IMG/VR virus record: IMGVR_UViG_3300002835_000015
Coordinates: 62,001-126,000 of that record
Source: a virus
Length of the DNA: 64,000 nt
Strand: one strand, 5' to 3'
Below, piece after piece: positions 8,994-62,031 of the stretch (positions are counted from its first letter, which is position 1; each line of letters opens with the position of its first letter). Position numbers and translations under genes: made by a program. Below the pieces are notes generated by a model. The model worked only from the letters and a program-made list of their open reading frames with translations. It searched no databases and was not told the origin of the DNA.

Positions 8994-9982
8994 TTTGTTG
9001 ATTCCTCATAGGCTTCATCGAACAACTTATTCCAATTATTTACAAACTGTGTTTCTGAAAAATTATCTTCTATAGTTTTTCTAGCATTAGCACCGATTTT
9101 TTCTCTTAGGCTTTTATCATTTAATAGTAATTCTAGATATGACCTTAACTCACCCTCGTTATTTGAGATAAAGCCATTTTCTCCATTCTTGATTATCTTT
9201 GGTATCATGCACGTTGCCGTGGAAACAACAGCACACCCACAGGACATAGCCTCTAGCAAAGACATGGGTATTGGACTAAGAGTTGAACTATTAAAATATA
9301 CAGCGCACTGATTATATGAATCGACCAAATCATTTATACTTTTAGCAGCTTCTGAAAGCCCTTCTGTATCTCCTATTAGTTTTGTATTTAGTCCACTTGT
9401 TATTCTTTTCCACCCGGAGAAATTCAAACAATAATCTCTTTTAACAAAGTCATTAGCAACTGTTAAAATTGTATTATTTTTTTCAATGTCTTTGACACTA
9501 AAGGTGCTGGTATCTAATCCATGATGAATAACTTTTCCATCTAACTCCCAAGCAGATCTAGAAAAATCCGATATAAAAACATTTATGTCGCCATTCATAC
9601 TCCGCATTTCTTCAATTTGCTTTTGTGCCATTGAATTAGGGGTTGGTAAGGTGTGTTCTAAACATATGATTGGCAATCCAAGCTGCCTATTTATATTTTG
9701 AGCCATTTGAAACTGTCCAAATTTGCTCTGAACAAGAATCATATCAAAATTTAAATAATCACACAATTGATTTTCTGGTAGAATATGATAATTTGCTGGA
9801 ATATCTGTTTGATTTGAATTCCACTTTTTCATGTTTGAAATATTCAACGCATAAAACTCATGATTTGTTTTACATAGCCCTGTCTCATACCTTTCGTGAG
9901 TAGGAAAAGTAAGAATATTATACTTATCCTTTTTTGGACTATTTGCTAGACTAATAATTCTATTTGTTGTATTATTCAGCAT
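8990..9982 (-). CDS. GT4-family glycosyltransferase
   Basis: This 330-residue GT-B enzyme has the GT4 C-terminal signature: ILTVANDFVKRDYCLNF begins the nucleotide-sugar domain, and SPIPMSLLEAMSCGCAVVSTATCMIPKII carries the E-x7-E-like donor site (normally EAMACG-x-P-V-V). It ends LREKIGANARKTIEDNFS, the usual GT4 tail. It retains configuration of the donor sugar. Start ATG lies 11 bases inside the previous gene. It is one of three consecutive GT4 genes. Confidence 0.88.
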   Translation of the reverse strand: MLNNTTNRIISLANSPKKDKYNILTFPTHERYETGLCKTNHEFYALNISNMKKWNSNQTDIPANYHILPENQLCDYLNFDMILVQSKFGQFQMAQNINRQLGLPIICLEHTLPTPNSMAQKQIEEMRSMNGDINVFISDFSRSAWELDGKVIHHGLDTSTFSVKDIEKNNTILTVANDFVKRDYCLNFSGWKRITSGLNTKLIGDTEGLSEAAKSINDLVDSYNQCAVYFNSSTLSPIPMSLLEAMSCGCAVVSTATCMIPKIIKNGENGFISNNEGELRSYLELLLNDKSLREKIGANARKTIEDNFSETQFVNNWNKLFDEAYEESTK

Positions 9983-11087
9983 TTAGTATTTCCTTTATAA
10001 TATTTCCCACATTTTCATAAGAAAACTTTTCTGCACACTCTAGCCCTTTTGTTTTATCTATATTACCCCTATTGTCATAATAGAATCTCATGGCAGATTT
10101 TATCTCTTGCTCATCTGGAGTAAACCACAATTCCCTACCGGTAAAAATATTGGGAAAAGCAGAATCAGAATGTTCACAAACAGACTGTACCCCATTTATT
10201 AGTGTTCCATGATTTCTATCTAAGATATATTCTTTTGGTCCACCCTCATTGCTACATATTGGAGTATTGCCAAAGCACATAGCATCAAATGAAGGAATAG
10301 ACCACCCTTCACCGTGAGTTGTGTTGACCATACAATCACAAGATTTATGTAATATATCTATCTCTTCTGAAGTCATTTCGTCTGATATTATGATTTCTTC
10401 ATGATAATCTTCAATCTTAGGATAGATTCTTAGAGTCTTTTTAATTGAATCACACATACTTTTTACATGATTTTTTAAATCTGTTGAATTTACTCCAAAT
10501 TTCTTAATCTTAAGAACCAACGAAACCGGCTCATATGCATGAAATTCGCTATGAAAAGATTTGATAACTGATTCTATATTTTTTCTTTCATTTATATCTG
10601 CAATATAATAAAATTTGAAGCTGCTATTTTTAGCTCCAAAATTAACTCTCGTCTTTATGTCTTTTTTGTATCTACTAATATCAAATGCGTGTGGAACGTA
10701 TTTTACATTACTAAAGCCATCTTTTTTCATATTATGCAATTGAGTATTATTTGGAACCCATATTTCATCAACAAGACTCAGGCTTGTTTTCCAAGGATTG
10801 TATTTTAAAGTATTAGACTCACCAACATAGTAGGCAATATTCTTTTTGAACTTAGAAGTTCCAACTATATGGTGTGGTAATAGGTGCTGGATGCAAAAAT
10901 CAATATTGTCTAAAGACTTTTTTTCTAGCTCTGTTATCTTATCTGGTATACTAAATGGTTTTGGTGTTAGTTTTACATTCCTACAAACTACATCTATACC
11001 AGCTGAATCTATAGCATGTATTAAATCTATAGCTGCTTTTGACCAGCCGCTACTTTCTTTATAATGTCCTATATATAATAATTTCAT
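9972..11087 (-). CDS. GT4-family glycosyltransferase
   Basis: The 371-residue protein opens MKLLYIGHYKESSGWSKAAIDL, a typical GT4 acceptor-domain start with a Gly-Ser loop, and has LVDEIWVPNNTQLHNMKKDG ahead of the donor domain. The donor site reads HGEGWSIPSFDAMCFGNTPICSNEGG, equivalent to the E-x-FG-x-P-x-x-EAMA-x-G motif of GT4 enzymes, with Asp in place of the second Glu. It overlaps the next gene by 11 bases and the previous by 4. Acceptor unknown. Confidence 0.85.
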   Translation of the reverse strand: MKLLYIGHYKESSGWSKAAIDLIHAIDSAGIDVVCRNVKLTPKPFSIPDKITELEKKSLDNIDFCIQHLLPHHIVGTSKFKKNIAYYVGESNTLKYNPWKTSLSLVDEIWVPNNTQLHNMKKDGFSNVKYVPHAFDISRYKKDIKTRVNFGAKNSSFKFYYIADINERKNIESVIKSFHSEFHAYEPVSLVLKIKKFGVNSTDLKNHVKSMCDSIKKTLRIYPKIEDYHEEIIISDEMTSEEIDILHKSCDCMVNTTHGEGWSIPSFDAMCFGNTPICSNEGGPKEYILDRNHGTLINGVQSVCEHSDSAFPNIFTGRELWFTPDEQEIKSAMRFYYDNRGNIDKTKGLECAEKFSYENVGNIIKEILNAE

Positions 11088-12754
11088 GTCATCCCTCTAG
11101 CTTTCAGCATTTCGATTCTTTTGTTTTCCCAAAAATTTCTTCTTTGGCATAAATAAGCCATTTGATCATAAGCGGTATTAAAATCAAATGCATTTCTGCT
11201 ATTTTTTCCATCAAACATAGATGAATTTTCATTAAAATACATTCCACCAGTTGTGGATGTAGAACTTTGATATGTCAAATCTCTTATCATCCTTGATTCA
11301 AAGTATGAATTTAATCTTTCTGGTTCTCCTAGCACTTCCGCAATGAGCCATCTAGCAATATCTTTATGCGGTATGTTATTAGGTAATTTTTCTGGCTTTG
11401 GTTTTGGGGTAGATATCCTTGGTTGATTTTTCCAATTATCAAAATCTTCTGATATTTCTATACTATCAAAGAAACTTTCCCAAGCACTTCCGCTCTTATC
11501 CCACTGATAATGCTTTAGAAACGCTTGTCTGGTATCAAAACCTAGTCTTCTTCTTATACTGACAGGCTGTTCGAAAAACTCTTTAAACTTTTGAGCGGCT
11601 AATATATTGTCTGGAACCGCTCTAAAACATCCAGTTTCAAGTTCTTTGTATAAAGCTTTTGGAGTAAGTGGAGTTCCACCAAGATTTCTGACTACACTTT
11701 CCATAGCAGAATAATCTGTGGCCATTACTGGTACTCCACATGCGGCGGCTTCTACTTGTGGTAATCCAAAACCCTCACAATTAGCATACTGAACATATAG
11801 ATCAAACAAGTTTATGATCTTAGAAAGTTCTTCATATTCTACGCCGTGCTTTACGTTAGACAAAGATGAACCAAATTGACCAGTATATGGAGATTGTGTA
11901 ATAGCACCCTTAAATAAAGATGGGAAAGGTTTTCCAGTTTGTCCACATATATATGTAAAATATACTTTAGATGATAGCTGGTATTGCTGTAATAACTCTG
12001 GAATGTCCCAACCTAAGTCGGGGTAACTTGTATGACAATATAAATAATAATTACTGCTATCTTCTACGCTGTCTAATAAAAGTCTAAATGCTTGAAATAA
12101 ATCTGGATATAATTTTCTTCGCTGGTTTCTCATCACTGTTCCAATAATTTTAGCATCTGGATTAATTCCCATTGATGCTCTAAGTCCAGCCTTATCTTCT
12201 ATTGGTTGATAAGCACTGTGTGCAGACGGAGGAGAAATGCCAATATAGTTTATCTTACCGCCAGACTGTTGTTTCAATACCTCGCCAGCCCACTCAGAAT
12301 ATGTTAAACAGGCATCAGCGGATTCATATGTTGATACCCACTGCCTAGCCTGCGGTCTAGCATCTACTGTGGGCATAATGCACCATTTAAAATTTCTTCT
12401 AAAGGGCGACCGTTCAGCAAAATCAAGCATCCAAAAATCTCGTATATCGCATACAACGTCTGGTAAAAAGTCTAAACATACATGCTCAAACATTGTTTCT
12501 CCAAACTGAGCCATTGGATTTTGTGCGTATTGATCTTTTTCTTCTTGTGAGCAGGAATTGTCTGGAACAACTCCATAAAATTTCCAAGGTATATTTGATG
12601 CTCTTGGGTCGCTTCTTTCGCCATATGAAGCCATTTCCGCAATATCATACTTGCCAGTGCTGTATAAATAATTGAGTATTTCTCTTGTGTAAGTAGCATA
12701 ACCAGTATTTAAAAATGTTGCTTCACTGCAAAATAATATTCTGGGTTTTCTCAT
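11084..12754 (-). CDS. Large GT4-family glycosyltransferase
   Basis: This 556-residue protein is a long GT-B enzyme. It opens RKPRILFCSEATFLNTGYATYTREIL with the N-terminal Gly loop, and the donor-binding motif is NCEGFGLPQVEAAACGVPVMATDYSAMES (G-F-G-L-P-x-x-E-A-A-A-C-G-x-P), a perfect GT4 consensus. About 120 residues after the catalytic domain (from KPKPEKLPNNIPHKDIARWL) form an extra C-terminal part of unknown role. It is flanked by another GT4 gene and a GT32-like gene with four-base overlaps. Confidence 0.9.
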   Translation of the reverse strand: MRKPRILFCSEATFLNTGYATYTREILNYLYSTGKYDIAEMASYGERSDPRASNIPWKFYGVVPDNSCSQEEKDQYAQNPMAQFGETMFEHVCLDFLPDVVCDIRDFWMLDFAERSPFRRNFKWCIMPTVDARPQARQWVSTYESADACLTYSEWAGEVLKQQSGGKINYIGISPPSAHSAYQPIEDKAGLRASMGINPDAKIIGTVMRNQRRKLYPDLFQAFRLLLDSVEDSSNYYLYCHTSYPDLGWDIPELLQQYQLSSKVYFTYICGQTGKPFPSLFKGAITQSPYTGQFGSSLSNVKHGVEYEELSKIINLFDLYVQYANCEGFGLPQVEAAACGVPVMATDYSAMESVVRNLGGTPLTPKALYKELETGCFRAVPDNILAAQKFKEFFEQPVSIRRRLGFDTRQAFLKHYQWDKSGSAWESFFDSIEISEDFDNWKNQPRISTPKPKPEKLPNNIPHKDIARWLIAEVLGEPERLNSYFESRMIRDLTYQSSTSTTGGMYFNENSSMFDGKNSRNAFDFNTAYDQMAYLCQRRNFWENKRIEMLKARGMT

Positions 12755-13779: not shown

Positions 13780-15351
13780 TTAAATTTCATGAATCTTATC
13801 TACTATAAATGATGTATCTTTATCACTTACTGACCCACAGAAAATTAAGTTGTTTCCTTCATATAGAATATATTTATACTTTTCACGGGTCTTTGGAAAT
13901 ACTATAACACTGTCTAATATGCACGTATCATCCTCTATAGTCAAAAATGACATGACCTGACCCTTAGATTCGCCTTTATTGATGGTATAATCTGATAGTC
14001 TTTGAATGTTGGCAACTACGCACATATCCTTACCCTTCTTGCCATTGATTATTTCTTTGCAAGTTGTGTTAGCAGCAGAAGTGTCAGAAGTCTCAACCTT
14101 CGTCATTGTAACTGGACATCCTAGAAATTTGACCTCTTGATCTATAATCCAAGTTGGATCGTCTTCTAGATCATACGGTGGACTTACTAATAGTTGTATT
14201 TCATTTTCTATAGCCTGCTTCCTGTCAGCTTTGCTAGTTCCACCACCATCTTTTTTAGTCGGTGCTAAATCTCTCAAGCAATCCACAAAGGAACTCCACT
14301 TTTTATCACTATAATGATTTAATATCCAAGTCTGTTCTGCTTTGGTGAGAGTTCTATAAATTTCATAATCATAGAGAGCTTTGTTTCTAGTAACACTGCT
14401 CTTGAAATTTCTAAAGAATCCTATTGAGGCTAAAGCCTTGAATGCAGTAGAGCTAATATTTGATCCTATAAAAAGCAAGATTTCAAGCCAAGTAAATTCC
14501 TTTACTGGTTTACTCAAAGTCTTTTCAGCTTCATTTATAGTTTCTATTAACTTATCTCCGGTCGCACCCGTTAGTGACTTTACATCCTTAATACCAAAGT
14601 ATATCTTACCACGCTTAATATTGAACTTTCTTTCAAAGTTGGTTAAGCTTGGAGTTCTTGTCTCAATATCAAATAGTTTTGCCTCAGATATCAATTCATA
14701 AACTTCTTGATGAGGGTCTTGCTTTTCATTCGCGTAGAACAGGTAAGACAAAAAGAATTCCTTGGTGTTATGAGCCTTAAAGTATGCACTCCAATAAGAA
14801 CATACAGCATATGAAACACTGTGGGATTTATTAAATGCGTATCTTGATGATTTCTCAATCCATCCGAAAATTTCTTCTGCGTTCTCCTTACTTACAATTC
14901 CAACACGCTCTGCCCCCGCTATGAATGATTTTTTGACTTCATTCATGAGGTCAGCCTTTTTCTTTCCAATGGCCTTACGAAGAACGTCTGCCTCTTGTAA
15001 ATTGAAACCAGCGATTTTCTCTGCTATACGCATAGACTGCTCTTGATATACAAGAACTCCATATGTTGGCTTTAGAATCTCTTCAAGTGCTGGATGAAGA
15101 TATGTTACTTCTTCTCTACCGTGCTTACGGTCTACATAATGCTGGGTCATGCTTTTCCCATCAACAATTGCTTTCAAAGTTCCCGGCCTAATGATAGCAA
15201 TTAGTGCTGATAGTTCTTCAATATTATTTGGTGCAACTTTTTTAGACCATGATTTTCCAAGGTTACTTTCTAATTGAAAGATTCCCTTAGTCTTGCCTTC
15301 TGCGAACAGTTGCCAAGTTGTTTTATCATTATAGTCTAAATTATTTAACAT
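13780..15351 (-). CDS. dnaE: DNA polymerase III alpha, C-terminal half (fingers, HhH, OB)
   Basis: The product (523 residues from ATG 15351) is the second half of a DnaE polymerase. It starts at the fingers: LFAEGKTKGIFQLES, then IRPGTLKAIVDG, YVDRKHGREE, YGVLVYQEQSMRIAEKIAGF, LRKAIGKKK and RYAFNKSHSVSYA, all strong DnaE motifs. The end is an OB-fold (GQVMSFLTIEDDTCILDSVIVF). It lacks the PHP and palm, which lie in the gene at 16014-17639. The start overlaps the exonuclease stop by 11 bases; upstream in-frame codons read through that gene's end and are less likely. The two halves must assemble as separate chains. Confidence 0.92.
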   Translation of the reverse strand: MLNNLDYNDKTTWQLFAEGKTKGIFQLESNLGKSWSKKVAPNNIEELSALIAIIRPGTLKAIVDGKSMTQHYVDRKHGREEVTYLHPALEEILKPTYGVLVYQEQSMRIAEKIAGFNLQEADVLRKAIGKKKADLMNEVKKSFIAGAERVGIVSKENAEEIFGWIEKSSRYAFNKSHSVSYAVCSYWSAYFKAHNTKEFFLSYLFYANEKQDPHQEVYELISEAKLFDIETRTPSLTNFERKFNIKRGKIYFGIKDVKSLTGATGDKLIETINEAEKTLSKPVKEFTWLEILLFIGSNISSTAFKALASIGFFRNFKSSVTRNKALYDYEIYRTLTKAEQTWILNHYSDKKWSSFVDCLRDLAPTKKDGGGTSKADRKQAIENEIQLLVSPPYDLEDDPTWIIDQEVKFLGCPVTMTKVETSDTSAANTTCKEIINGKKGKDMCVVANIQRLSDYTINKGESKGQVMSFLTIEDDTCILDSVIVFPKTREKYKYILYEGNNLIFCGSVSDKDTSFIVDKIHEI

Positions 15352-16021
15352 ACAAATTTCCGTCAGCAAAAGCCTTATCAAAGTTCATGTTTTGGTATAC
15401 CGCACGATGAGTTTTCATAAGCTTAATAAATATATTTGCTTCATCTTTAACGTCCTGTAGAGCATCGTGAGCATTGTCAAAACTTAAGCCCATTCTCTCA
15501 CGCAAAGAATCCATGCTTATAGATCTAACACTGGGATCGCTTTCAGTCCAAGCAAATACACTATCCATGATATCTATCTTATAGACTCTACTGAATAGTT
15601 TTTGCTGCTCTCTCTCTTTGTCCCAAGGTCCAAAATCTCTACATAGTCTGTTTATTATGTGCATATCGAAGCCAATTATATTAAAACCAACAGGGATAGG
15701 ATTAAAAAATGGTTCACCCTTCCAGTTGTATTGATCAACAAATTTTGTAAATTTATTCCATACGGACTTTAAGGATGGTGCTAATTCTAATTGCTCCCTT
15801 GTCTTCTTTGTTATCTTTAGAGCTTCATCTTGTATGGGGTCAAATCCAGCCGCTATAGCTTTTTCATCATCAAAAATAGGCTTAATTTCACTGTTGAATT
15901 GCCCCTTCATCTGCAATGTTCTTCCATCTAAGGCAATAGCGGCGATTTGTGTTGGTTGAGTACGATGTGGATTGCGTGATCCTGTTTCAAAATCAAATAT
16001 AATATAGTCTCTATTAGCCAT
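15341..16021 (-). CDS. DnaQ-like 3'-5' exonuclease (DEDDh)
   Basis: The 226-residue protein carries the DEDDh set: FDFETGS (D10, E12), VGFNIIGFDMHIINRL (D119), and NAHDALQDVKDE (H185, D190). This is the epsilon-type proofreading exonuclease fold. The gene lies exactly between the two DnaE halves and overlaps both (8 bases upstream, 11 downstream), which suggests that the products form a proofreading polymerase complex. No clamp-binding motif is obvious. Exonuclease function is well supported; assignment as the replicase proofreader is inference from position. Confidence 0.9.
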   Translation of the reverse strand: MANRDYIIFDFETGSRNPHRTQPTQIAAIALDGRTLQMKGQFNSEIKPIFDDEKAIAAGFDPIQDEALKITKKTREQLELAPSLKSVWNKFTKFVDQYNWKGEPFFNPIPVGFNIIGFDMHIINRLCRDFGPWDKEREQQKLFSRVYKIDIMDSVFAWTESDPSVRSISMDSLRERMGLSFDNAHDALQDVKDEANIFIKLMKTHRAVYQNMNFDKAFADGNLYVK

Positions 16022-17639
16022 TAGATACTCCTGTTAGTTCTTCAATCTTCATAATTTTATCTAGCAAATTGATTCCTAGAACGTCAAACTTTACGTGGCC
16101 CAGTGCCTCTAAGTCTGCCATTTCAAGTCCAGCCACCTTTTCTGACGAGCCTTTTTGTTTTACCATTGGGCATACCTTTTGAAGTGGCTCTGCTGAAATT
16201 ACCACACCGGCAGCGTGTTTGCCTTGAGTTTTAAATGTTCCCTCTATCTGAATAGCTTGTTCAAAATATTCAGCATACTCTCCCTCAAGTTTTCCATCTT
16301 CTGATATTCTACAGAAATCTCTTAGATCCTCAGAGTTATTAATCAAAGCCCACTTAATAATAGATCGATCTTCATCATCCATTTCTGCTAATTGATCTGA
16401 GATTCTTGCTTCGTCTGGTATACAGTTACTTATAGCATTCATTTCAGAGAATGAGCAAGCCTCATTAACACGTAAAACTTCCTTAATAGCACTCTTTCCT
16501 TGAAGTCTTCCAAACGTTAACATTTGGCTAACTCGACTATTCCCATACTTATCTTTTAGATATGCAATAATTTCATCACGCTTAGTACCGGGAACGTCTA
16601 TATCAATATCTGGTAGAGATATATGATCAGCACTGTTTCTTCCAGCGTTATAAAATCGTGCAAATAGAAGGTCAAACTCTATTGGGTCAATCTTCGTTAT
16701 GCCAATTAAATATGAGATTAAACATCCTGCGGCAGATCCTCTACCGGGACCAGATAGCCAACCCATATCATTAACGTGCTTTATAATATCACGAACAATA
16801 AGAAAATATCCGAATAGATTAGCATCTTTAATAACATCAAACTCTTCCTTGAATCTACTCAAATACTTCTGCTTATCTTCTTCGTTTGATACCTTGTTTT
16901 GATCTATTAATATTTTCTTCCAGCCAATACGACATAGTTCCTTGAGATAATCTTCTTCTGATGCCCCTTTTGGACATTCAAATTTAGGCAACATTGGCTT
17001 GCTGAGAATATCGTAGTCTTCACACTGGTCATAAATCTCTTTTAGTTTAGATGAGTCTAAGCCCTTAGATTCGTCTTTGTCTTTAACGTAGAAAGAGTCT
17101 TGCATAAAATATACCAATTTATCCATATGCTCTTGGGGATATTTTGAGTCTACATTTATACCACCGCTGTTGTCTGGCCTAATGCATTTCTTTATTTTTG
17201 GTAGCGTAGTCTTCATATCAGAACATAATAATATTCTGTGAAGTTTGGCATCTTCCCTATTTGTATAATAACTAATAGGCATTGATTCAGTAGGAGCATT
17301 ATAGACACTAATCAAATTTTTACTGATATTTGTGTTGTCATATTGCTCTGGTAATTTACCATTTTCATCTAGTGATGAAACCATCTCAATTAACTCGTAC
17401 CACCCATCTTTATTCTTAGCAAAAAGTGTAGCAAAATCAAATGAGCATCCAATGATGGGCTTTATACCCTGTTTTTTGCAGGCTTTATAAAAAGCAACTG
17501 CACCAGATAATGTTTTATAATCACAAATACCACATGCTGGATATCCATTATACTTACATTTTTTAGCCAATTCTTCTGGCTTTGAATAACCTTTGAGCAA
17601 ACTGTAATGGGTATAATTCTTCAACGGGAACCAGTTCAT
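16014..17639 (-). CDS. dnaE: DNA polymerase III alpha, N-terminal half (PHP and palm)
   Basis: The 541-residue product starts with a PHP domain (THYSLLKGYSKPEEL) but the usual 'TDH' reads GICDY, so metal-binding His residues are lost. The palm follows: GWLSGPGRGSAAGCLISYL, SLPDIDIDVPG (D344, D346) and, at the very end, VKFDVLGINLLDKI with the third catalytic Asp D519. The chain stops about 20 residues later, exactly where the fingers should begin. TKIDPIEFDLLFARF and GKHAAGVVISAEPL are also DnaE signatures. AAGGAAAT precedes the ATG, and a near-consensus sigma-70 promoter lies just upstream. Confidence 0.93.
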   Translation of the reverse strand: MNWFPLKNYTHYSLLKGYSKPEELAKKCKYNGYPACGICDYKTLSGAVAFYKACKKQGIKPIIGCSFDFATLFAKNKDGWYELIEMVSSLDENGKLPEQYDNTNISKNLISVYNAPTESMPISYYTNREDAKLHRILLCSDMKTTLPKIKKCIRPDNSGGINVDSKYPQEHMDKLVYFMQDSFYVKDKDESKGLDSSKLKEIYDQCEDYDILSKPMLPKFECPKGASEEDYLKELCRIGWKKILIDQNKVSNEEDKQKYLSRFKEEFDVIKDANLFGYFLIVRDIIKHVNDMGWLSGPGRGSAAGCLISYLIGITKIDPIEFDLLFARFYNAGRNSADHISLPDIDIDVPGTKRDEIIAYLKDKYGNSRVSQMLTFGRLQGKSAIKEVLRVNEACSFSEMNAISNCIPDEARISDQLAEMDDEDRSIIKWALINNSEDLRDFCRISEDGKLEGEYAEYFEQAIQIEGTFKTQGKHAAGVVISAEPLQKVCPMVKQKGSSEKVAGLEMADLEALGHVKFDVLGINLLDKIMKIEELTGVSNG

Positions 17640-36876: not shown

Positions 36877-38175
36877 CTAGTATAAAGTGAATGAAGACAA
36901 ATCAATTGTTGTTACAGTATATGAACTACCAGATCTATTATTTCTTGTCCAAAGTAGATTCATATTAGTATTTAATGTACTTATAAAATTACTATAGAAT
37001 GGTCCACTGTCTGGTCCGGTCCATGTTATTATCAAAACCAATTGATTATTGATGATTAAAAATGATGGGTTACCACTATCTCCACCGATTATTGATTCAT
37101 GAAATAATATTCTATTTGGGTATGTATTATAATAACTATTATTGGGATCAAGATAATTTTGTGTTGGTTGCTGTGTATATGCGGAACTGCCCGTTGGGTC
37201 CACGTATAGAAATTCTTTTACTAAAGCTTTTTCTTCTTGATCTAAAGATAGCATTGGAAGTCTGTAGATGGTATAAGTACCACTTTTATTTCTATAAATT
37301 GTAGGTAAATATATAGACCAATTAGAAGGAAGTAATTTGGCAAAACTAATGGAATTTGGTACGTCAGAATCTAAAAGTCCCAAATAAATATCACTAGTCA
37401 ATGTTGGCATTTTGTCTATTAATGTTCTTTCTATAACGACATTATCATTAGTAACAAATCTAACTTTAGCCCCGATATCTATTTCATAATGAGTAGCAAA
37501 AACTAAGTGACTTGGGCTAATTAGAGTTCCAGCTCTAGTATTTGATCCAGTTGTATTCCAAGGACTTATGCAAGTTAAATCTAAATCATAAGCCCAACAA
37601 TTAGTATTTCTAACGTATGTAGAAGTTGAATGGTTTTGAGTACTATAAATATCTTTTGCTATAGTTGGGTTTTTATTTAATAGTCTATTATCGACGCTAT
37701 CAGAACAATTTTTTGCTAAACTACCAGATGTAAATTCACAAAAAGCATCTATTTGTCCACCTATATTACAATTGACATTTACTTCTGCAATGTTAAAATC
37801 AGATGTATTTATTCCACTTGCTATAATTTTTACTGCTCTTTTAGAAGTGCTTCCCGTTGGCACTCCAGAACATATATAGTTGTTAGGATTTAAATTTGAT
37901 AAAATACTGTTATCTGTACTATATACAGTAACTGATATATCATCTTGTTTATATAATATTATATTAAAATCAGTTATAGTAGATGAATTAGTAGATCTGA
38001 ATACTGTAGCGTCATAATTCGTAGTATAACCAGAGCCAGTAGAAACTAATATCCTATCTTGGGGCTGTGCTGTGATTTTTACTCTATCTCCACCAATATC
38101 TGGTTTTTTAAACAGATAAGATGAATTCTCAGATATAGAACCACAATTGAGAGGTATATTTTGAGCTTCTATCAT
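36877..38175 (-). CDS. Trypsin-like serine protease, virion-associated (paralogue B)
   Basis: The 432-residue protein has a beta-rich N-terminal part and a chymotrypsin-fold C-terminal domain with the triad in LVFATHY (H229), SDIYLGLLDSD (D262) and IIGGDSGNPSF (S367). It aligns along its length with the gene at 39489-40700, sharing for example LTCISPWN and DSDVPNSISFAK. There is no signal peptide. Its ATG overlaps the last base of the fibre gene, so the two are cotranslated. A protease riding on or maturing the adjacent fibre is the simplest idea; a role in digesting host surface protein is also possible. Confidence 0.8.
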   Translation of the reverse strand: MIEAQNIPLNCGSISENSSYLFKKPDIGGDRVKITAQPQDRILVSTGSGYTTNYDATVFRSTNSSTITDFNIILYKQDDISVTVYSTDNSILSNLNPNNYICSGVPTGSTSKRAVKIIASGINTSDFNIAEVNVNCNIGGQIDAFCEFTSGSLAKNCSDSVDNRLLNKNPTIAKDIYSTQNHSTSTYVRNTNCWAYDLDLTCISPWNTTGSNTRAGTLISPSHLVFATHYEIDIGAKVRFVTNDNVVIERTLIDKMPTLTSDIYLGLLDSDVPNSISFAKLLPSNWSIYLPTIYRNKSGTYTIYRLPMLSLDQEEKALVKEFLYVDPTGSSAYTQQPTQNYLDPNNSYYNTYPNRILFHESIIGGDSGNPSFLIINNQLVLIITWTGPDSGPFYSNFISTLNTNMNLLWTRNNRSGSSYTVTTIDLSSFTLY

Positions 38176-39479
38176 TATGGTGTTCCATAGCTAGCTTGAC
38201 AGTAATTTACTGCCGCTACCCATCTAATATTTTTAGTTGCTAATCCAGTAACTCTAATAGACAATCCTCCATTTGTAGCATCTGCTGCTACGCTGGCTAA
38301 AGCCGAAGTCATACCAGCATCTTTCCAGCTTGTTTCAGTGGGTGTTTCAATCAAAGCGGTAGTACTAGCACCAACCCCTCTTTTAATACCTCCAACAAAA
38401 TTCCATACGGCTGAAGAAGTATCCGTGTCATTATAAGCACTAATTTGTATGTTAAAATTTACCGTAGTTTTATCTGGTAAAAATATAAAATTTCTTGAAG
38501 TCGTGTTACTTGGAGATGTTACTAGAGATGCAGATCCATTTGCCGTTAAAATTACATTTGATGTATTACTTGAGGTTTCAGTTCTTAGCACTATGGTTGA
38601 TCGCTGTGCATCTCCAGCAGAAGCAAAACTACCACCAGCCTGTGCCACTTCTCCATATAAAGTAGTTTTTGCGGATATACCACCTAAAATAGATGAATAT
38701 ATTCCGCTAGCAATATTGTTTTGACCGTTAATGATGCTAGAATAGTTAGCAGTTGCTGTGTTTTGATTCCCATTTCCAATAAAAGTATAATCTGAAATAG
38801 CAGAATGACCAAATCCATTTATAATAGAAGAATAAGTTCCTCTGCTCATATTAAAAGTTCCATTACATATCAACCCATAGTTAGGAGACGTTACAGTATT
38901 TCTTAAACCAGTGATTATGGTAGCGTTACTAGAGGCTGGTGATCCAGCAGTATTTCTATCTCCATTAAGAATAGATGTATAAACACCGCTACCAACACAG
39001 CCATTACCAGATAAAATTGTTATATTATAACCACTTGCAGTACAAGTATTAGCGTGATAAATACCATTATAGTTAAAACTTGAACCAAGCAGTGATGAAA
39101 TTATTGAGTTTCCTGATCCCAAGCATAGATTTCCGCTTCCTAATATATTGTTAAATTTTGTAGTATTATTACCAGAGATTTCAACTATTGGGGATGAGAT
39201 TACTATTCCGCCAACTGTAGATCCATCACCAACATATAGTTTTTTAGTATCGGTTGTCCATAACGGTTCTGCTACCGATGGAGTTACCAATAGTCTTTCT
39301 GAATCAAGACCCTGCTTTAATTGCAAAGTTGCAGCTTGATTTAGTACAGAACTTCTTAATGTGCTGGCAGAAACTTTTTTTGTTATTGCTTGATCATTTG
39401 GGCTATCCACCATAACAAAAAGATCATCATCTGTTACAGATGATACTGATGGTAACTGCGTTATTTTTACAACACCCAT
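38175..39479 (-). CDS. Tail-fibre-like protein B with YadA-type repeats
   Basis: The 434-residue protein begins VVKITQLPSVSSVTDDDLFVMVDSP, followed by LWTTDTKKLYVGDGSTVGG, a Mtd_N-like phage fibre head module also present in the gene at 40702-42207. The middle has short repeats such as YSSIINGFGHSAISDYTFIGNG and YSSILGG, the left-handed beta-roll pattern of YadA/hemagglutinin heads. The C-terminal region is a separate beta domain. It is likely a trimeric receptor-binding or adhesion fibre. It is coupled by one-base overlap to a serine protease gene downstream. Confidence 0.78.
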   Translation of the reverse strand: MGVVKITQLPSVSSVTDDDLFVMVDSPNDQAITKKVSASTLRSSVLNQAATLQLKQGLDSERLLVTPSVAEPLWTTDTKKLYVGDGSTVGGIVISSPIVEISGNNTTKFNNILGSGNLCLGSGNSIISSLLGSSFNYNGIYHANTCTASGYNITILSGNGCVGSGVYTSILNGDRNTAGSPASSNATIITGLRNTVTSPNYGLICNGTFNMSRGTYSSIINGFGHSAISDYTFIGNGNQNTATANYSSIINGQNNIASGIYSSILGGISAKTTLYGEVAQAGGSFASAGDAQRSTIVLRTETSSNTSNVILTANGSASLVTSPSNTTSRNFIFLPDKTTVNFNIQISAYNDTDTSSAVWNFVGGIKRGVGASTTALIETPTETSWKDAGMTSALASVAADATNGGLSIRVTGLATKNIRWVAAVNYCQASYGTP

Positions 39480-39488
39480 ATTAAACTC

Positions 39489-40700
39489 CTAATAAGATAA
39501 AAAAGATGAAAGATCTATTTCAGTTAGTTGATACCCACCGCCAAGCTGAGACATCATTGTGTTGATAGCATTTTTTCTTTGAGTTATAAATGTACCCAAA
39601 CTAGAACTAGTCCAAACTGTAAGAACTACTAATTGATTGTTAATTATTAGAAATGATGGACTACCAGAATCTCCGCCAATAATATCTTCATAAAATGATA
39701 ATCTAAAAGAATTTGTCGGGCGCATCAGTACAACTTGATTAGATATTGCATATAAATCAGCAACCATAGCTTTTTTTTCTTGATCCGTTATTAAAACTGG
39801 AAGTTTTATTGGATGAGAAATAGAAGGTAAATACGATGTCCAGTTTTCTGGCAAAATTTTAGCAAATGATATACTATTAGGAACATCAGAATTTAATACA
39901 CCAATAGTTATATCTGGATAATATGGAGTGTATGAAGGATCTGTTTGCAATGTTTCAATAGTTCTATTAATAACAATATTGTCTGATGTGACATATCTTA
40001 TTGTTGTTCCTACTGGTGGTTGATAGTGGGCGGCAAATAAAACATGACGAGGAGAAATAAGTACTCCCGCCATATTATTGCCACCATATGAGTTCCATGG
40101 ACTTATGCACGTTAAATCTATGTCTGAAACCCAACATCCTGTATTTCTAATATAAATATTAGATGAGTTGTTTATATTAGAAAAAATAGGTTTTGAGTAA
40201 CCGGGAACTTTGTTGCTTATACGACTGTCGATGGCATCAGTAGTATTTTTTGCTAATGAATTATTAGCCCAACTGTTAAAAGAGTCTATATTTCCAGAAT
40301 ATGTTTTTTGAGCATACAGTCCTATTGCTGATGTTTCACCATCATTAGATATTGCTGTAATAGTACAATATCCATCATTCTGATACGTAGCTATTCCACC
40401 ATTATTATTTATAGTTAATACAGATGGATTGGATGATGAAAATTTAACAAGGCTATTGAATGTAGATTGATTGAATATATTTTGTATAGTAAAATCTGTA
40501 ACATATTCAGCACTAGTTTGCCTATTGAGCATTTTATCTTTATCATAAGCTATAGAATTAGAGCCAGACACTGTAATTCTATTTATGACATTACCTACAA
40601 TGTCAAAAGATCTATCGCTAATCCTTTTTTTAGCATAATTATTGAAGTTTACGGTTGATGCTAAACCGCAGTTAATTGGATGATTTACAGATGGATACAT
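39489..40700 (-). CDS. Trypsin-like serine protease with Ig-like domain (paralogue A)
   Basis: The 403-residue protein has a bacterial-Ig-like (Big_2) segment, FSSSNPSVLTINNNGGIATY, then a chymotrypsin-fold protease with H225 (VLFAAHYQP), D263 (PDITIGVLNSD) and S345 (IIGGDSGSPSF). No signal peptide is present, so it probably leaves the cell inside the virion or at lysis. It follows fibre A by one base and precedes fibre B by nine. It is clearly homologous to the gene at 36877-38175, and the fibre/protease pair as a whole is duplicated. Confidence 0.82.
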   Translation of the reverse strand: MYPSVNHPINCGLASTVNFNNYAKKRISDRSFDIVGNVINRITVSGSNSIAYDKDKMLNRQTSAEYVTDFTIQNIFNQSTFNSLVKFSSSNPSVLTINNNGGIATYQNDGYCTITAISNDGETSAIGLYAQKTYSGNIDSFNSWANNSLAKNTTDAIDSRISNKVPGYSKPIFSNINNSSNIYIRNTGCWVSDIDLTCISPWNSYGGNNMAGVLISPRHVLFAAHYQPPVGTTIRYVTSDNIVINRTIETLQTDPSYTPYYPDITIGVLNSDVPNSISFAKILPENWTSYLPSISHPIKLPVLITDQEKKAMVADLYAISNQVVLMRPTNSFRLSFYEDIIGGDSGSPSFLIINNQLVVLTVWTSSSLGTFITQRKNAINTMMSQLGGGYQLTEIDLSSFLSY

Positions 40701-40701
40701 A

Positions 40702-42207
40702 TTAGTTAGTAGTTAGTGTTACTCCTCTGGTTACTAATGCTTTTGCACTAGAGCCAGCTTTAATGATAGTGGCTGTGCCAGCACCAGTTGCTGTTTGAGA
40801 TGATATAGTATAAGTAAATTGATTACTATTAGTTACCGTAATAACAGCATACCTGTTTGCATTTGTAGCTGTTGTAATTCCACTGACTCTTAATACATCT
40901 CCACTGAGATATCCATGATTAGTTAAATTTACAGTACAAGTTGTACCAGAACAAACGAAATTTGAACCATTGGTAGTAATACTGCCTAAATTTGAAGGAG
41001 ATGCGCTAGACCCTCCACTAATATTGATACTTCTTGCATTAGGAGATCCATAAGATGTTGTTCCATTAGTTCCATCCATGTATGCGAATGTTGCTAATAA
41101 ATTATCAACACTACTTTGATTTAGCGAAGCATTAGTTATAGACACATTCAAACCACAACTTTTCCATGTTCCAAGAGAAGGAAGAGTTAGTGTTTGTAAA
41201 ACGGGGGTTGTGAATGTTATGGTACTAGAAAAAGAACTCCCTACCGCTACTATCGATGGAATAGATATTGATGTCATAGAAGACGAAGAGATATTAAAAT
41301 TTCCACCGTTGCTAGTAACAACATACTGTAATGATGGTAGAGATAAAGAGCTTAAGCTGTTTGCTGTTAAATTAAAATAATCAATAGTATTTAATAATGG
41401 TAAGCTTATTGATGTCAAGTTTGAGCCAGTAAATAATAAATATTTTGCATAAGTGAGCTTTGGCATTTGAAAAGACGTTAGAGCATTTGCTGTTAATCCA
41501 AAATTCCCAGTAATATGTACAATTTCTGGTAATGACAGAGTTGTTAAACTATTCATCGTAGTAGAATCAAACAAATTTCCATTTATATATTTAAAATTAT
41601 TTAGTAATATGCTTGTAAGATTAGTGACAGTACCCATAGTAGAAAATAAATTACCGGTAAGACCTTCTATGTTGGATGAAATAGTAGCTATTCTACCATC
41701 AACAAAATCTTGATTATTATAGAGGGGCCACGAACCTTCAACCCACGGTCCTGTTCCTGTTAACACATTTCCATTTATTGTCATTATGTTTTTAGGAAAA
41801 GTAATAAGGGCTGCATTCCTTGAATATATTGGAGTAGACCCTGTGATAGTCGTCGTTAGTGCAGGTATGCTTTCAGAAAAACTTATTGGCACACCTCCTT
41901 GTGTAATACCATCACCCATTCGTAATACTTTGGAGTCGGTAGCCCATAAAGGCTCACCTTCTAATGGAGTTATTGCATTAACTTCTGCTAATGTTCCTCT
42001 ACGAATTTGTAAATTAGCTGGAGATGTAATATCAACCCACTGATTATTGCGGCGACCATATGTAATAGTGCCAGATGGTGCATCAACATCCTTCCATAAT
42101 ATTTTTTTAGTTACAGGTGTTCCATCTGGATTATCTACCATTACCAAAACATCGTCTGGAGTTATAGAGGAACTAGATGGTAATTGGTGTATTCTTGTGA
42201 CAACCAT
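40702..42207 (-). CDS. Tail-fibre-like protein A with leucine-rich repeats
   Basis: The 501-residue protein starts VTRIHQLPSSSSITPDDVLVMVDNP, then LQIRRGTLAEVNAITPLEGEP and LWATDSKVLRMGDGITQGG, the Mtd_N-like module that attaches phage receptor-binding proteins. The central third is a run of BspA-type leucine-rich repeats (ALTSFQMPKLTYAKYLLFTG, NLTSISLPLLNTI, SLSSLSLPSLQYV), each about 22-24 residues. LRR binding surfaces in a fibre suggest host protein recognition. The C-terminus is a small beta domain. The partner protease gene follows immediately. Confidence 0.8.
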   Translation of the reverse strand: MVVTRIHQLPSSSSITPDDVLVMVDNPDGTPVTKKILWKDVDAPSGTITYGRRNNQWVDITSPANLQIRRGTLAEVNAITPLEGEPLWATDSKVLRMGDGITQGGVPISFSESIPALTTTITGSTPIYSRNAALITFPKNIMTINGNVLTGTGPWVEGSWPLYNNQDFVDGRIATISSNIEGLTGNLFSTMGTVTNLTSILLNNFKYINGNLFDSTTMNSLTTLSLPEIVHITGNFGLTANALTSFQMPKLTYAKYLLFTGSNLTSISLPLLNTIDYFNLTANSLSSLSLPSLQYVVTSNGGNFNISSSSMTSISIPSIVAVGSSFSSTITFTTPVLQTLTLPSLGTWKSCGLNVSITNASLNQSSVDNLLATFAYMDGTNGTTSYGSPNARSINISGGSSASPSNLGSITTNGSNFVCSGTTCTVNLTNHGYLSGDVLRVSGITTATNANRYAVITVTNSNQFTYTISSQTATGAGTATIIKAGSSAKALVTRGVTLTTN

Positions 42208-42208
42208 C

Positions 42209-42457
42209 TTAAACTCCTAATATGCCAGAAGATCCGGTAGTATAATAAGTAACGTCATCAAATCTATCTTTTAGTCTGTTTTCTATAGCTGTATATGAAT
42301 AAGATTTCTCATATTCAAATGGACTTATAAGAGCTTGATAATTGCCACTCCCACTAACTGGCTTTCCGAACCAGCAATATACAACGGCTGAACCGTTTTG
42401 AATTGTTTCTCTACCAGAAACTACATTAGTGATTACATCTGTTGTTGAAATTGGCAT
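42209..42457 (-). CDS. Small virion-type protein upstream of fibre A
   Basis: The 82-residue protein begins PISTTDVITNVVSGRETIQN and is Gly/Ser/Tyr-rich with beta character (AVVYCWFGKPVSG, YQALISPFEYEKSYSYTA). Such short proteins often serve as fibre connectors or decoration proteins. It is separated by one base from the fibre A gene, suggesting joint expression. No named family. Confidence 0.55.
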   Translation of the reverse strand: MPISTTDVITNVVSGRETIQNGSAVVYCWFGKPVSGSGNYQALISPFEYEKSYSYTAIENRLKDRFDDVTYYTTGSSGILGV

Positions 42458-42470
42458 ATTTTACCCCTTT

Positions 42471-43391
42471 TTAGAATTGATCTTTTAATGTCCAAATTAC
42501 TTTTCTTGGAGGAAAGCCGTCTACATCACTAAATACCCAAGAGCCATTCTGTGCTAACATTTCTGCTGCATCTCGTTCTCTTATCCAGAAACTTCCATCT
42601 GGTTGATCTAAACGCTTCTCACCATTATTCCAAACCCCCCAAGAGTTTTGGACTAAGAATAGTGTTTCATTATAAATTTCATGAGTATCATCCATCCCAA
42701 TCCAAGCCATCGCGTGACCCCATGATCCAGATCGGGCGGCAATACCATTCTTATCTCTTCTAGAACTAAATCCAGAATTACTGCATACACTAATAGAATA
42801 ACCGTTGGCTATTGCATCTCTGGCTTGATCTATTGTGTTAATTAAACTGATAGTCTTAACTTGATGTTTCTTTGCTGCTTTTACTAATTCTTCTGGAACA
42901 CCAGTACGACCCCATCTGCCACCAATAGCACTATATGTTGAAAGATCATAATCTCCGTACTTTTGACGAAGTAATATTCCTCCATTTTGGTGGACGAATT
43001 TAGCAGCACCACCACAAGTCATACCTTCACCGCCGTGTCCGCGTGAACCATAAATACCTTCAGTAGCACCACGGGCCACAAACTCTTCTCGTTGTCCATT
43101 TATAATTTCACAACTGCGTGTAATATCTACGCTATTTCGCGTTGCATGTGAAACACAATCTCCTTGGACTTGCCTTTCTGATGGACCAAAAGAGGGATCA
43201 AACTTCAAGAGAGACTTAAACGGTAGGGATAGTTTTCCTTTTCCAGTACCATATAAATCATGTGCTGCCACACCAAATAGTGGATGTGGCAGTTCTCCTA
43301 AGAGCTTGTCCAACTCTTTTGGGTCACAGTATGATCCTACAAAGCCATCTTTATAGGCTTTTAATAAATCTTTCGGTGTCTTGAACATCAC
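42471..43391 (-). CDS. Papain-like (C1-type) cysteine peptidase
   Basis: The 306-residue protein has the C1 triad: ERQVQGDCVSHATRN (Q76, C79), SGSWGHAMAWIGMDD (H226) and LFLVQNSWGVWNNG (N249), in the right order and spacing for papain-fold enzymes. There is no propeptide signature or signal peptide. Papain-type peptidases are rare in phages; it may mature virion proteins or cut peptide bonds in cell wall or host proteins. The gene lies between a holin-like gene (four-base overlap) and the fibre block, so it could equally be a lysis or virion gene. Confidence 0.82.
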   Translation of the reverse strand: MMFKTPKDLLKAYKDGFVGSYCDPKELDKLLGELPHPLFGVAAHDLYGTGKGKLSLPFKSLLKFDPSFGPSERQVQGDCVSHATRNSVDITRSCEIINGQREEFVARGATEGIYGSRGHGGEGMTCGGAAKFVHQNGGILLRQKYGDYDLSTYSAIGGRWGRTGVPEELVKAAKKHQVKTISLINTIDQARDAIANGYSISVCSNSGFSSRRDKNGIAARSGSWGHAMAWIGMDDTHEIYNETLFLVQNSWGVWNNGEKRLDQPDGSFWIRERDAAEMLAQNGSWVFSDVDGFPPRKVIWTLKDQF

Positions 43392-45911: not shown

Positions 45912-46283
45912 CTATTTTGTGAAAACTTCAGACGGTTTTATACAAGGTTCATCCGCCTTACTATCTTTATGCCCATTTATGATTTTTGCTTTAGTATCTT
46001 TACTAATAAGATTGAAAATTTTAATTAGACAATCTTCTCTACCTTCTTCTACAAGGGCATTTTTTACTATATTCATAGTTTCTAGTATCGCCCTATCTTC
46101 TGCTAAAGTGTCGATTATATAACACAGTGATTCAATAGATTCATCACTATAATCCTCCAGTTCTACATCCACTATCGTAGAATCTGAACCTTTAGAAACT
46201 ATATAACTTATTTTTGCTAAAACTTCATTAGGTTCTGAAACTTGTTCATTATCTGGTTTTTTCTTGAAGAAATTAAATAACAT
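45912..46283 (-). CDS. Unknown helical protein
   Basis: The 123-residue product starts MLFNFFKKKPDNEQ and is mainly alpha-helical (SIESLCYIIDTLAEDRAILETM, NIVKNALVEEGREDCLIKIFNLI), like a small adaptor or scaffold. It lies between the sigma-linked acidic gene and a glycosyltransferase gene, overlapping the latter by 11 bases. No family recognised. Confidence 0.5.
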   Translation of the reverse strand: MLFNFFKKKPDNEQVSEPNEVLAKISYIVSKGSDSTIVDVELEDYSDESIESLCYIIDTLAEDRAILETMNIVKNALVEEGREDCLIKIFNLISKDTKAKIINGHKDSKADEPCIKPSEVFTK

Positions 46284-47346
46284 TTAATATTTTTCTCCCG
46301 GTGTTTTTCCAGCTAAAATTTTTAGCAGTTGTAATTCCATATTCGTTAACAGTTAAACTATTAGTTATATTTAGTTCATGGATATTTTGCATATATTTTA
46401 TAGCAATATTTTTGGCCCTATTATCTATCCTAGCCCAATTACCTTGACCGTGAAACCATTTACCGTCATATGCAGTTTCGGTTTCTTCTATAGGTATTAA
46501 CAATGCATTATTAGAGTTACAAAATTCTGTATGGGCAGAATAATCTGTGGCTATTACACGTTTTCCACAAGCCATCATTTCTAATAGCTCTAAATTCCAC
46601 CCCTCTGCTCTTGCTGGAAATATTCCACAATGAGTTTGGGACATTATATTATACACTTCTTGCTGAGTGTTCTGTCGTGGAATAATATGTATTTTAGATC
46701 CCAGTTTAGACTTTTTATATAGATTTATCCATTCATTTTGTTCCTGCTCTGTGCAGAAAGGATTTTCGCACATCATGAATAGTTCTACATTATCATCTTC
46801 GTTAAACGCTGAGTTAAATATATCAACTAATACATCATGCCCCTTTCTTATTTCCCATTTACCACAATTAAAAAATCTTGTTGGACTATTTTGTGGCATT
46901 TCAGACGGCTGAAAAATAGATGAATCAACACCCAGCGGGACTACTATAACGTTAGATTCTTCAATAGTTGTATTATTTAATACTATTTTCTTAGCCCATT
47001 CTGAACATACAAACACTCTATCTAAAGATTGAAGTTGATGCTTTTCAAAATCATTAAACTTATCCAACTCAAATATCGGAAACCCTATTCTGGTTCCTTT
47101 GCCAGCAAATTGTGCCATATCATGTTGATGCCATATTTTAATACATGGGGCATTATAATCATAAAACTGAGAATTTTTTATACATTTAGAGATTATGTCG
47201 GCATCTTCTTGATTTGTTACTTGAGGTTGTCCTATCATGAATAAAGAAACTTCTATGGATTTAGATAGTTCTTTGATAATGTTTAAGGATGATACGCCGT
47301 AACCAAGCTGATTAATTGGGGCCATTACATTAATTTTAGTATTCAT
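46273..47346 (-). CDS. GT4-family glycosyltransferase
   Basis: The 357-residue GT-B enzyme has NVMAPINQLGYGVSSLNI at the N-terminus, RVFVCSEWAKKIVLNN and VIVVPLGVDSSIFQPSE at the domain border, then FFNCGKWEIRKGHDVLVDIF starting the donor domain and FPARAEGWNLELLEMMACGKRVIATDYS as the GT4 donor site (A-E-G-x-x-L-x-x-x-E-M-x-A-C-G-x-x-V-I-A). It adds a further sugar-transfer activity away from the main island. Neighbouring genes overlap it at both ends. Confidence 0.9.
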   Translation of the reverse strand: MNTKINVMAPINQLGYGVSSLNIIKELSKSIEVSLFMIGQPQVTNQEDADIISKCIKNSQFYDYNAPCIKIWHQHDMAQFAGKGTRIGFPIFELDKFNDFEKHQLQSLDRVFVCSEWAKKIVLNNTTIEESNVIVVPLGVDSSIFQPSEMPQNSPTRFFNCGKWEIRKGHDVLVDIFNSAFNEDDNVELFMMCENPFCTEQEQNEWINLYKKSKLGSKIHIIPRQNTQQEVYNIMSQTHCGIFPARAEGWNLELLEMMACGKRVIATDYSAHTEFCNSNNALLIPIEETETAYDGKWFHGQGNWARIDNRAKNIAIKYMQNIHELNITNSLTVNEYGITTAKNFSWKNTGRKILNVI

Positions 47347-61297: not shown

Positions 61298-61298
61298 G

Positions 61299-61646
61299 TG
61301 GAGGCGGCGAGAATCGAACTCGCGTCCAGAATAATTTCAATATAAACATCTACATCCTTAGTTAGTTGTTCTCGCACAGCTAACAAAGCTAACAGAATTA
61401 TCTGTGTCAGATTGAATACAATCATTACCCCCATTTATGTTTGGTGAGGATACCATATCCGATTATCGGAGTCAGCATGATTGGGCAATACGGTTCATGC
61501 CACCGCACTCTTGCCTAACTAGGTCAGGCAGCGAGAGCGAAACGAGTTTCGCCAACTAACATTTTAATCGACTTTTATACTGGCCGGTCGATTAACCAGT
61601 GGATGCCATCTATATATCCGTTTACCTGTCGATACCTTTCGCCCCC
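61299..61646 (-). ncRNA. ssrA: Transfer-messenger RNA (tmRNA)
   Basis: A single-piece 348-base tmRNA. The 5' end GGGGGCG pairs with CGCCTCC at the 3' end, giving a 7-bp acceptor with a G-U at pair 3 (alanine identity), discriminator A, CCA not encoded. The T arm is GCGAG-TTCGATT-CTCGC. Pseudoknot PK1 is exact (ACTGG/CCAGT and TTAATCGAC/GTCGATTAA). The tag reading frame ends V-G-E-T-R-F-A-L-A-A then TGA, the stop lying in helix 5 as in E. coli. The first base directly follows the thioredoxin stop codon. It rescues stalled ribosomes. Confidence 0.97.
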
Positions 61647-61988: not shown

Positions 61989-62031
61989 GCTATAACCCTC
62001 CAGTTGGTAAATAATATATTCTACCTTGAAT

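Follow-up and report, generated by a model that had tools for sequence, protein, structure and literature searches.

Introduction

Phage tailspike depolymerases are virion-borne enzymes that are coupled to host recognition and cut polysaccharide, and to our knowledge, such glycan-cutting tailspikes make up most of the known virion-borne enzymes that open a way to the receptor. Here, we analyse a stretch of viral DNA of 64,000 nucleotides (the window), positions 62,001 to 126,000 of the IMG/VR virus record IMGVR_UViG_3300002835_000015, which comprises 158,798 bases and may be incomplete. Two adjacent minus-strand cassettes (42207-36877) each hold a gene for a fibre and a gene for a predicted chymotrypsin-fold serine protease. 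This arrangement and its exchange between related phages as a single package suggest, as read from the sequence, that a proteolytic enzyme is delivered to the cell surface by some phages. A preliminary description of the region had regarded the pair as a tandem duplication of one functional unit.

Tailspike depolymerases: The likeness lies in a virion-borne enzyme coupled to host recognition, with the place of the window proteases on the virion being predicted. Tailspikes cut polysaccharide, whereas the window encodes a predicted protease apart from the fibre.

UmbA: This component of the umbrella toxin particles of Streptomyces has a trypsin-like domain with an incomplete triad and is inactive, according to its description (PMC11062931). 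The likeness to the window lies in a large particle on which a trypsin-like domain is combined with varied binding modules. In the family described here, in contrast, all viral clusters retain the triad, and the binding module mostly has a gene of its own.

gp099: In Sinorhizobium phage phiM9, gp099 is annotated as a trypsin-like serine protease with PF13365 (NC_028676; PMC10783043). A phage trypsin-like protease as such is therefore already known. The phiM9 gene and the major head gene adjoin on opposite strands, and the closest annotated tail fibre is about 24 kb away. Searches of one open-access library gave no description of a fibre-linked phage protease; subscription papers were mostly outside these searches and absence is unproven. 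Within this scope, we likewise know of no described phage system with the present organization, as had been claimed before.

Mtd: Major tropism determinant (Mtd) fibres resemble both window fibres in the Mtd_N domain, which is matched above the Pfam cut-off in both and gives only these two matches in the whole record. The difference is that the window record is without a reverse transcriptase match. A diversity-generating retroelement was considered and rejected: PF00078 (reverse transcriptase) had 0 matches in the possibly incomplete 158,798-base record, and hence there is no sign of such an element.

Organization of the two cassettes

The four open reading frames (ORFs) occur in the order fibre 1, protease 1, fibre 2, and protease 2, at the positions given in the preliminary description. 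The features are as follows.

40702..42207, minus strand: fibre 1, 501 amino acids; N-terminal module with Mtd_N, leucine-rich-like middle
41881..42207, minus strand: N-terminal module of fibre 1, residues 1-109, common to fibre 2 by pairwise alignment
42214..42218, minus strand: AGGAG Shine-Dalgarno-like site of fibre 1
39489..40700, minus strand: protease 1, 403 amino acids; trypsin-like domain from about residue 139; H225, D263, S345
38175..39479, minus strand: fibre 2, 434 amino acids; N-terminal module with Mtd_N, YadA-like head repeats
39486..39490, minus strand: AGGAG Shine-Dalgarno-like site of fibre 2
36877..38175, minus strand: protease 2, 432 amino acids; probably Ig-like N-terminal domain, predicted chymotrypsin-fold domain from about residue 143; H229, D262, S367

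In cassette 1, the protease starts one base after the fibre stop codon (+1). In cassette 2, the fibre stop and the protease start overlap by one base (TAATG, −1), so that the earlier reading of a one-base gap or overlap applies to both. The AGGAG sites lie in near-identical leaders of the two fibres, and neither window protease has a Shine-Dalgarno-like site. Hence, coupled translation is likely in the window.

The two fibres are similar over the first approximately 109 amino acids only (43/109 identical, E 8e-20) and thus have the same N-terminal module, as proposed. A constant N-terminal module with differing distal parts is a trait of receptor-binding fibres. Residues 188-267 of fibre 2 match UspA1, a YadA-type head (E 0.0027), and the distal part of this fibre gave one weak match only among GenBank phages. 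The leucine-rich character of fibre 1 comes from reading the sequence and from a weak PDB match to FLRT3 (E 0.41). Of the claim that leucine-rich repeats are set against YadA-type repeats in the binding parts, the difference beyond residue 109 and the YadA-type assignment thus stand, and the leucine-rich assignment is weakly backed. Peptidase_S74, the domain of the self-cleaving fibre type, was not matched in either fibre at E ≤ 1.

Protease fold and catalytic triad

The two window proteases are 39% identical from end to end (171/439, E 8e-87), in agreement with the view that they are paralogues along their whole length. Pfam, PHROGs, and NCBIfam gave no protease family match for either of them, and a PDB sequence search with protease 2 gave no match. 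PF00089 was matched by 5 of 41 relatives at E ≤ 0.01 (best 1.5e-5) and by neither window protease at E ≤ 1. We modelled protease 2 with AlphaFold2 from 41 sequences (mean predicted local distance difference test score, pLDDT, 87.8). The model aligns with delta-chymotrypsin (1dlk_B) over 183 residues with Z 15.5, a root-mean-square deviation of 3.0 Å, and 13% identity. Of the 1000 PDB chains compared, 926 reach a Z of at least 8, and the best among the matches listed are chymotrypsin-like proteases, headed by delta-chymotrypsin. The structure prediction of protease 2 therefore bears out the chymotrypsin fold that had been proposed. With the chymotrypsin/trypsin-fold serine peptidases (PA clan, S1-like), the window proteases share this fold (as predicted for protease 2), the order His-Asp-Ser, and the GDSG motif; they differ in the low identity given above for protease 2, the additional N-terminal domain, and the tie to a phage fibre.

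His, Asp, and Ser: By alignment, the triad is H229-D262-S367 in protease 2 and H225-D263-S345 in protease 1. For the family, 190 protease domains of at least 180 amino acids from 170 viral loci were grouped into 74 clusters at 90% identity. In all 74, R189, H229, D262, D366, and S367 (protease 2 numbering) are invariant, and the complete triad noted before is thus a property of the whole viral set. In some of the searches for relatives, one of the two search patterns contained the Ser motif, and in others none did; hence, part of the Ser invariance is due to selection. No search pattern contained the catalytic His or Asp.

The invariant triad bears on whether the domain is a docking module, i.e., a non-catalytic peptide-binding clamp that holds the fibre as in UmbA. 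The trypsin-like domain of UmbA binds the N-terminus of its partner in the substrate cleft, as stated in PMC11062931, and the fold matches of the protease 2 model include UmbA (structure 8w20_C). UmbA, however, is described there as being without a full triad and without activity, whereas His, Asp, and Ser are retained in 74/74 viral clusters here. We therefore consider a purely structural role very improbable.

Residue six before Ser: This position, which we take to be position 189 in chymotrypsin numbering, is D in protease 1 and S in protease 2 and is widely varied elsewhere. The variation fits differing substrates, as far as can be judged from the sequences.

N-terminal domain: Ahead of the catalytic domain, the model of protease 2 has a beta-sandwich that is probably Ig-like; its best Z values (7.7 for a PKD domain and 7.0 for Big_2) are below the clear level of the tool. 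Big_2 is matched in 6 of 41 relatives at E ≤ 0.01, and the N-terminal part of protease 1 is Big_2-like below the Pfam cut-off.

PxNCG segment: We also considered this conserved N-terminal segment as a docking tag common to non-proteases. The idea was rejected as a profile found proteases only; the sole non-protease row was a cut copy of the window's own protease. One viral locus (L014, 6560-10522) holds a fibre and a protease, then a second fibre and a leucine-rich protein with an N-terminal NINCGS string resembling that of the proteases. This leucine-rich ORF (9728-10522) matches the short string by regular expression and not by profile. It is possibly an alternative fibre partner.

Linkage of fibre and protease in other phages

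The fibre N-terminal module alone was searched in viral contigs, and the best 80 of 258 relatives were kept. Among these, all 12 loci that match the full module have an adjoining protease; they represent about five lineages, and three of the loci are identical copies. Another 68 loci share only Mtd_N, 14 of which were set aside as cut by contig ends. None of the 54 judged loci carries a protease anywhere in the locus (0/54). Hence, the linkage belongs to this fibre type and not to Mtd_N fibres generally.

Starting from the protease, a same-strand ORF of at least 140 amino acids ends within 60 nt upstream in 41 of 57 clusters of the first set. Of 49 clusters with an upstream ORF, 26 show a spacing of −1, +1, or −4 nt. 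Among 53 upstream ORFs scanned, 12 match Mtd_N, and phage tail, lectin-like, tail-lysozyme, and GDSL families are among those matched once. The recurrence of the linkage in other phages, the −1/+1 spacing, and the joining of the domain to structural-like proteins (see below) strengthen the earlier proposal that fibre and protease form a unit. Neither of the two results that were named beforehand as speaking against it was observed, as the triad residues can be aligned and a fibre adjoins the protease in at least some relatives.

Exchange of cassettes between phages

Comparison with related loci, given here by our own locus numbers, shows how the cassettes have moved.

L004: This is nearly the same phage, with eight flanking ORFs 89-100% identical to those of the window; one short ORF outside these eight (86 amino acids, overlapping another gene) is without an L004 counterpart. 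Cassette 2 is conserved (fibre 92%, protease 97% identical). In cassette 1, the fibre is 41% identical over the first 108 amino acids with nothing beyond, and the protease is 41% identical.

L049: This locus holds the L004-type cassette 1 (fibre 91%, protease 94% identical). Its cassette 2 is of a third kind, with a fibre of 231 amino acids and a protease 29% identical to that of L004.

L005: The flanks are foreign to the window (no match or at most 54% identity), yet cassette 2 is present. Residues 1-50 of its fibre 2 are 44% identical to the window, while later blocks of 50 residues are 62-96% and the protease 74-94% identical. Thus, a joint lies near fibre residue 50. Residues 1-50 are 86% identical between L005 and L006, which has the flanks of L005.

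By these alignments, the comparison shows the moving unit to be the fibre from about residue 50 and the protease, together. The preliminary description had assumed that the fibre is swapped and the protease kept. This was rejected because fibre 1 and protease 1 are both exchanged between the 89-100% identical flanks of the window and L004.

A recent tandem duplication in this genome was rejected as well: In a tree that excluded 9 long-branch rows and all rows labelled bacterial contig, the approximately unbiased (AU) test gave p 8.6e-7 against the window proteases being sisters. In this tree, protease 2 groups with the proteases of L005, L007, L011, and L012, and an older duplication (a clade of 7 rows) would be compatible with it (p 0.233). 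In a quick tree of 100 rows, the two window proteases lie on opposite sides of a branch with a Shimodaira-Hasegawa-like approximate likelihood ratio test (SH-aLRT) value of 99.

Directly upstream of the window cassettes lies a papain-like protein (42471-43391, minus strand; PF00112, E 0.0017, below the cut-off). In the lineage of L005, L006, L007, and L013, its relative sits downstream of the cassette instead.

The wider protease family

Five protease queries against GenBank phages gave one record, MW202510, or nothing. In other viral contigs, the domain is joined to further proteins. In L077, it is inserted in a protein whose two sides (E 1e-11 and 1e-27) match a 287-amino acid protein encoded upstream of the L076 protease; this protein has a weak match to a PHROG tail family (E 0.005) and no match among GenBank phages. 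In L017, the fusion partner of the domain matches phrog_2647, a family labelled head decoration. In L064 and L070, it stands beside repeats that look like a beta-propeller. L097 (5932-7836) holds two protease domains in tandem inside one protein.

A first scan of genome contigs found no relative. From a second, 80 of 116 relatives were kept, corresponding to 79 bacterial loci. Judged by gene order, L104, L107, L111, L114, L122, and L124 look like prophages. The prophage-like loci include cultured Luteolibacter pohnpeiensis and Anabaena lutea, and the domain of the latter is identical to that of the viral contig L016. Phages seem to have tied this protease family to their structural proteins, perhaps more than once.

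A fibre-maturation protease would trim its own fibre in assembly and, having to suit the cleavage site, would travel with that fibre. Such a role would account for fibre and protease genes that adjoin and change together. However, the same domain is linked or fused to very different proteins and is found in bacterial proteins without a nearby fibre, and we regard maturation as unlikely.

If the enzyme were instead set free at lysis and not part of the virion, it could degrade proteins of the host envelope or of debris. Such a role would agree with the secreted-looking bacterial relatives and, by our own reading, with neighbours in the window and its relatives that include small membrane-protein-like, lipoprotein-like, and papain-like ORFs (the papain match being below the cut-off). 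It would leave the tie to the fibre, the exchange as one unit, and the insertion into a tail-like protein unexplained, and the window proteases are without a signal peptide by reading. Release at lysis is thus a quite unlikely explanation.

Proposed function

We see an even chance that the two products of each cassette, a fibre that binds the receptor and a serine protease of chymotrypsin fold, work jointly at the host surface. The genome comparisons and the structure prediction show the tight adjacency, the fold of protease 2, the invariant triad, and the exchange of the fibre (from about residue 50) with the protease. We favour a host-surface protease targeted by its fibre for four reasons: the triad is present, fibre and protease are exchanged together, the domain is joined elsewhere to structural-like proteins, and the pocket residue varies.

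Translation of the protease would be coupled to that of the fibre. The first approximately 50 fibre residues would remain those of the recipient phage and would serve as the anchor of the fibre, and the remaining part would recognize the host. The protease would be carried on the virion, probably beside its fibre, and cut a host surface protein near the receptor, such as an S-layer, outer-membrane, or matrix protein. Its role for protein coats would be that of tailspike depolymerases for polysaccharide coats, and with two cassettes, a single phage would have two specificities for binding and cutting.

Several observations weigh against this proposal. Other bacterial relatives of the protease (Patescibacteria, Kiritimatiellota, Verrucomicrobiota) look secreted and are away from fibres; the family therefore extends beyond phages and beyond fibres. 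A block of large plus-strand ORFs, taken as the virion module by ORF size and order, is about 35 kb away from the cassettes and on the opposite strand. In 16 of the 57 clusters, no ORF of at least 140 amino acids ends within 60 nt upstream, although in some of these, the domain is fused, the locus is cut by a contig end, or a fibre is 177 nt away. Two of the 53 upstream ORFs are sulfotransferases. When 20 proteins (19 upstream ORFs and one of the prophage-like locus L122) were scanned singly against PHROGs, only 5 had a match in a tail family; another 4 hit families of unknown function, and the remaining 11 hit none. The Shine-Dalgarno contrast is weak across the family, with a site at 9 of 37 tight proteases vs 13 of 37 upstream ORFs. 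In L006 and L007, LYDSG replaces GGDSG at the catalytic Ser, with the triad being retained.

More tentatively, and with slightly more doubt than belief, we propose that a fibre and the extracellular protease cognate to it form a single exchangeable unit of specificity, and that such a system is widespread in phages. The fibre would find the host and the protease would cut a host surface protein; both specificities would set the host range and would evolve and move together, and some phages would stack two units. If so, an intact fibre-coupled trypsin-like protease would add host-surface proteolysis to the entry toolkit of phages, would be a plausible entry aid for phages of protein-coated bacteria, and would provide a recognizable specificity unit to search for in environmental phage genomes. 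The prophage-like copies in the cultured L. pohnpeiensis and A. lutea make the question testable.

Other features of the window

Three glycosyltransferases, all phrog_2170, are encoded on the minus strand (9972-11087, 11084-12754, and 46273-47346). Two neighbouring minus-strand ORFs (13780-15381 and 16014-17639) match successive segments (246-617 and 621-1063) of a single DNA polymerase family and resemble a split polymerase. A phage-encoded transfer-messenger RNA (tmRNA) with the tag GETRFALAA lies at 61298-61646 (minus strand) beside a tRNA-Ser.

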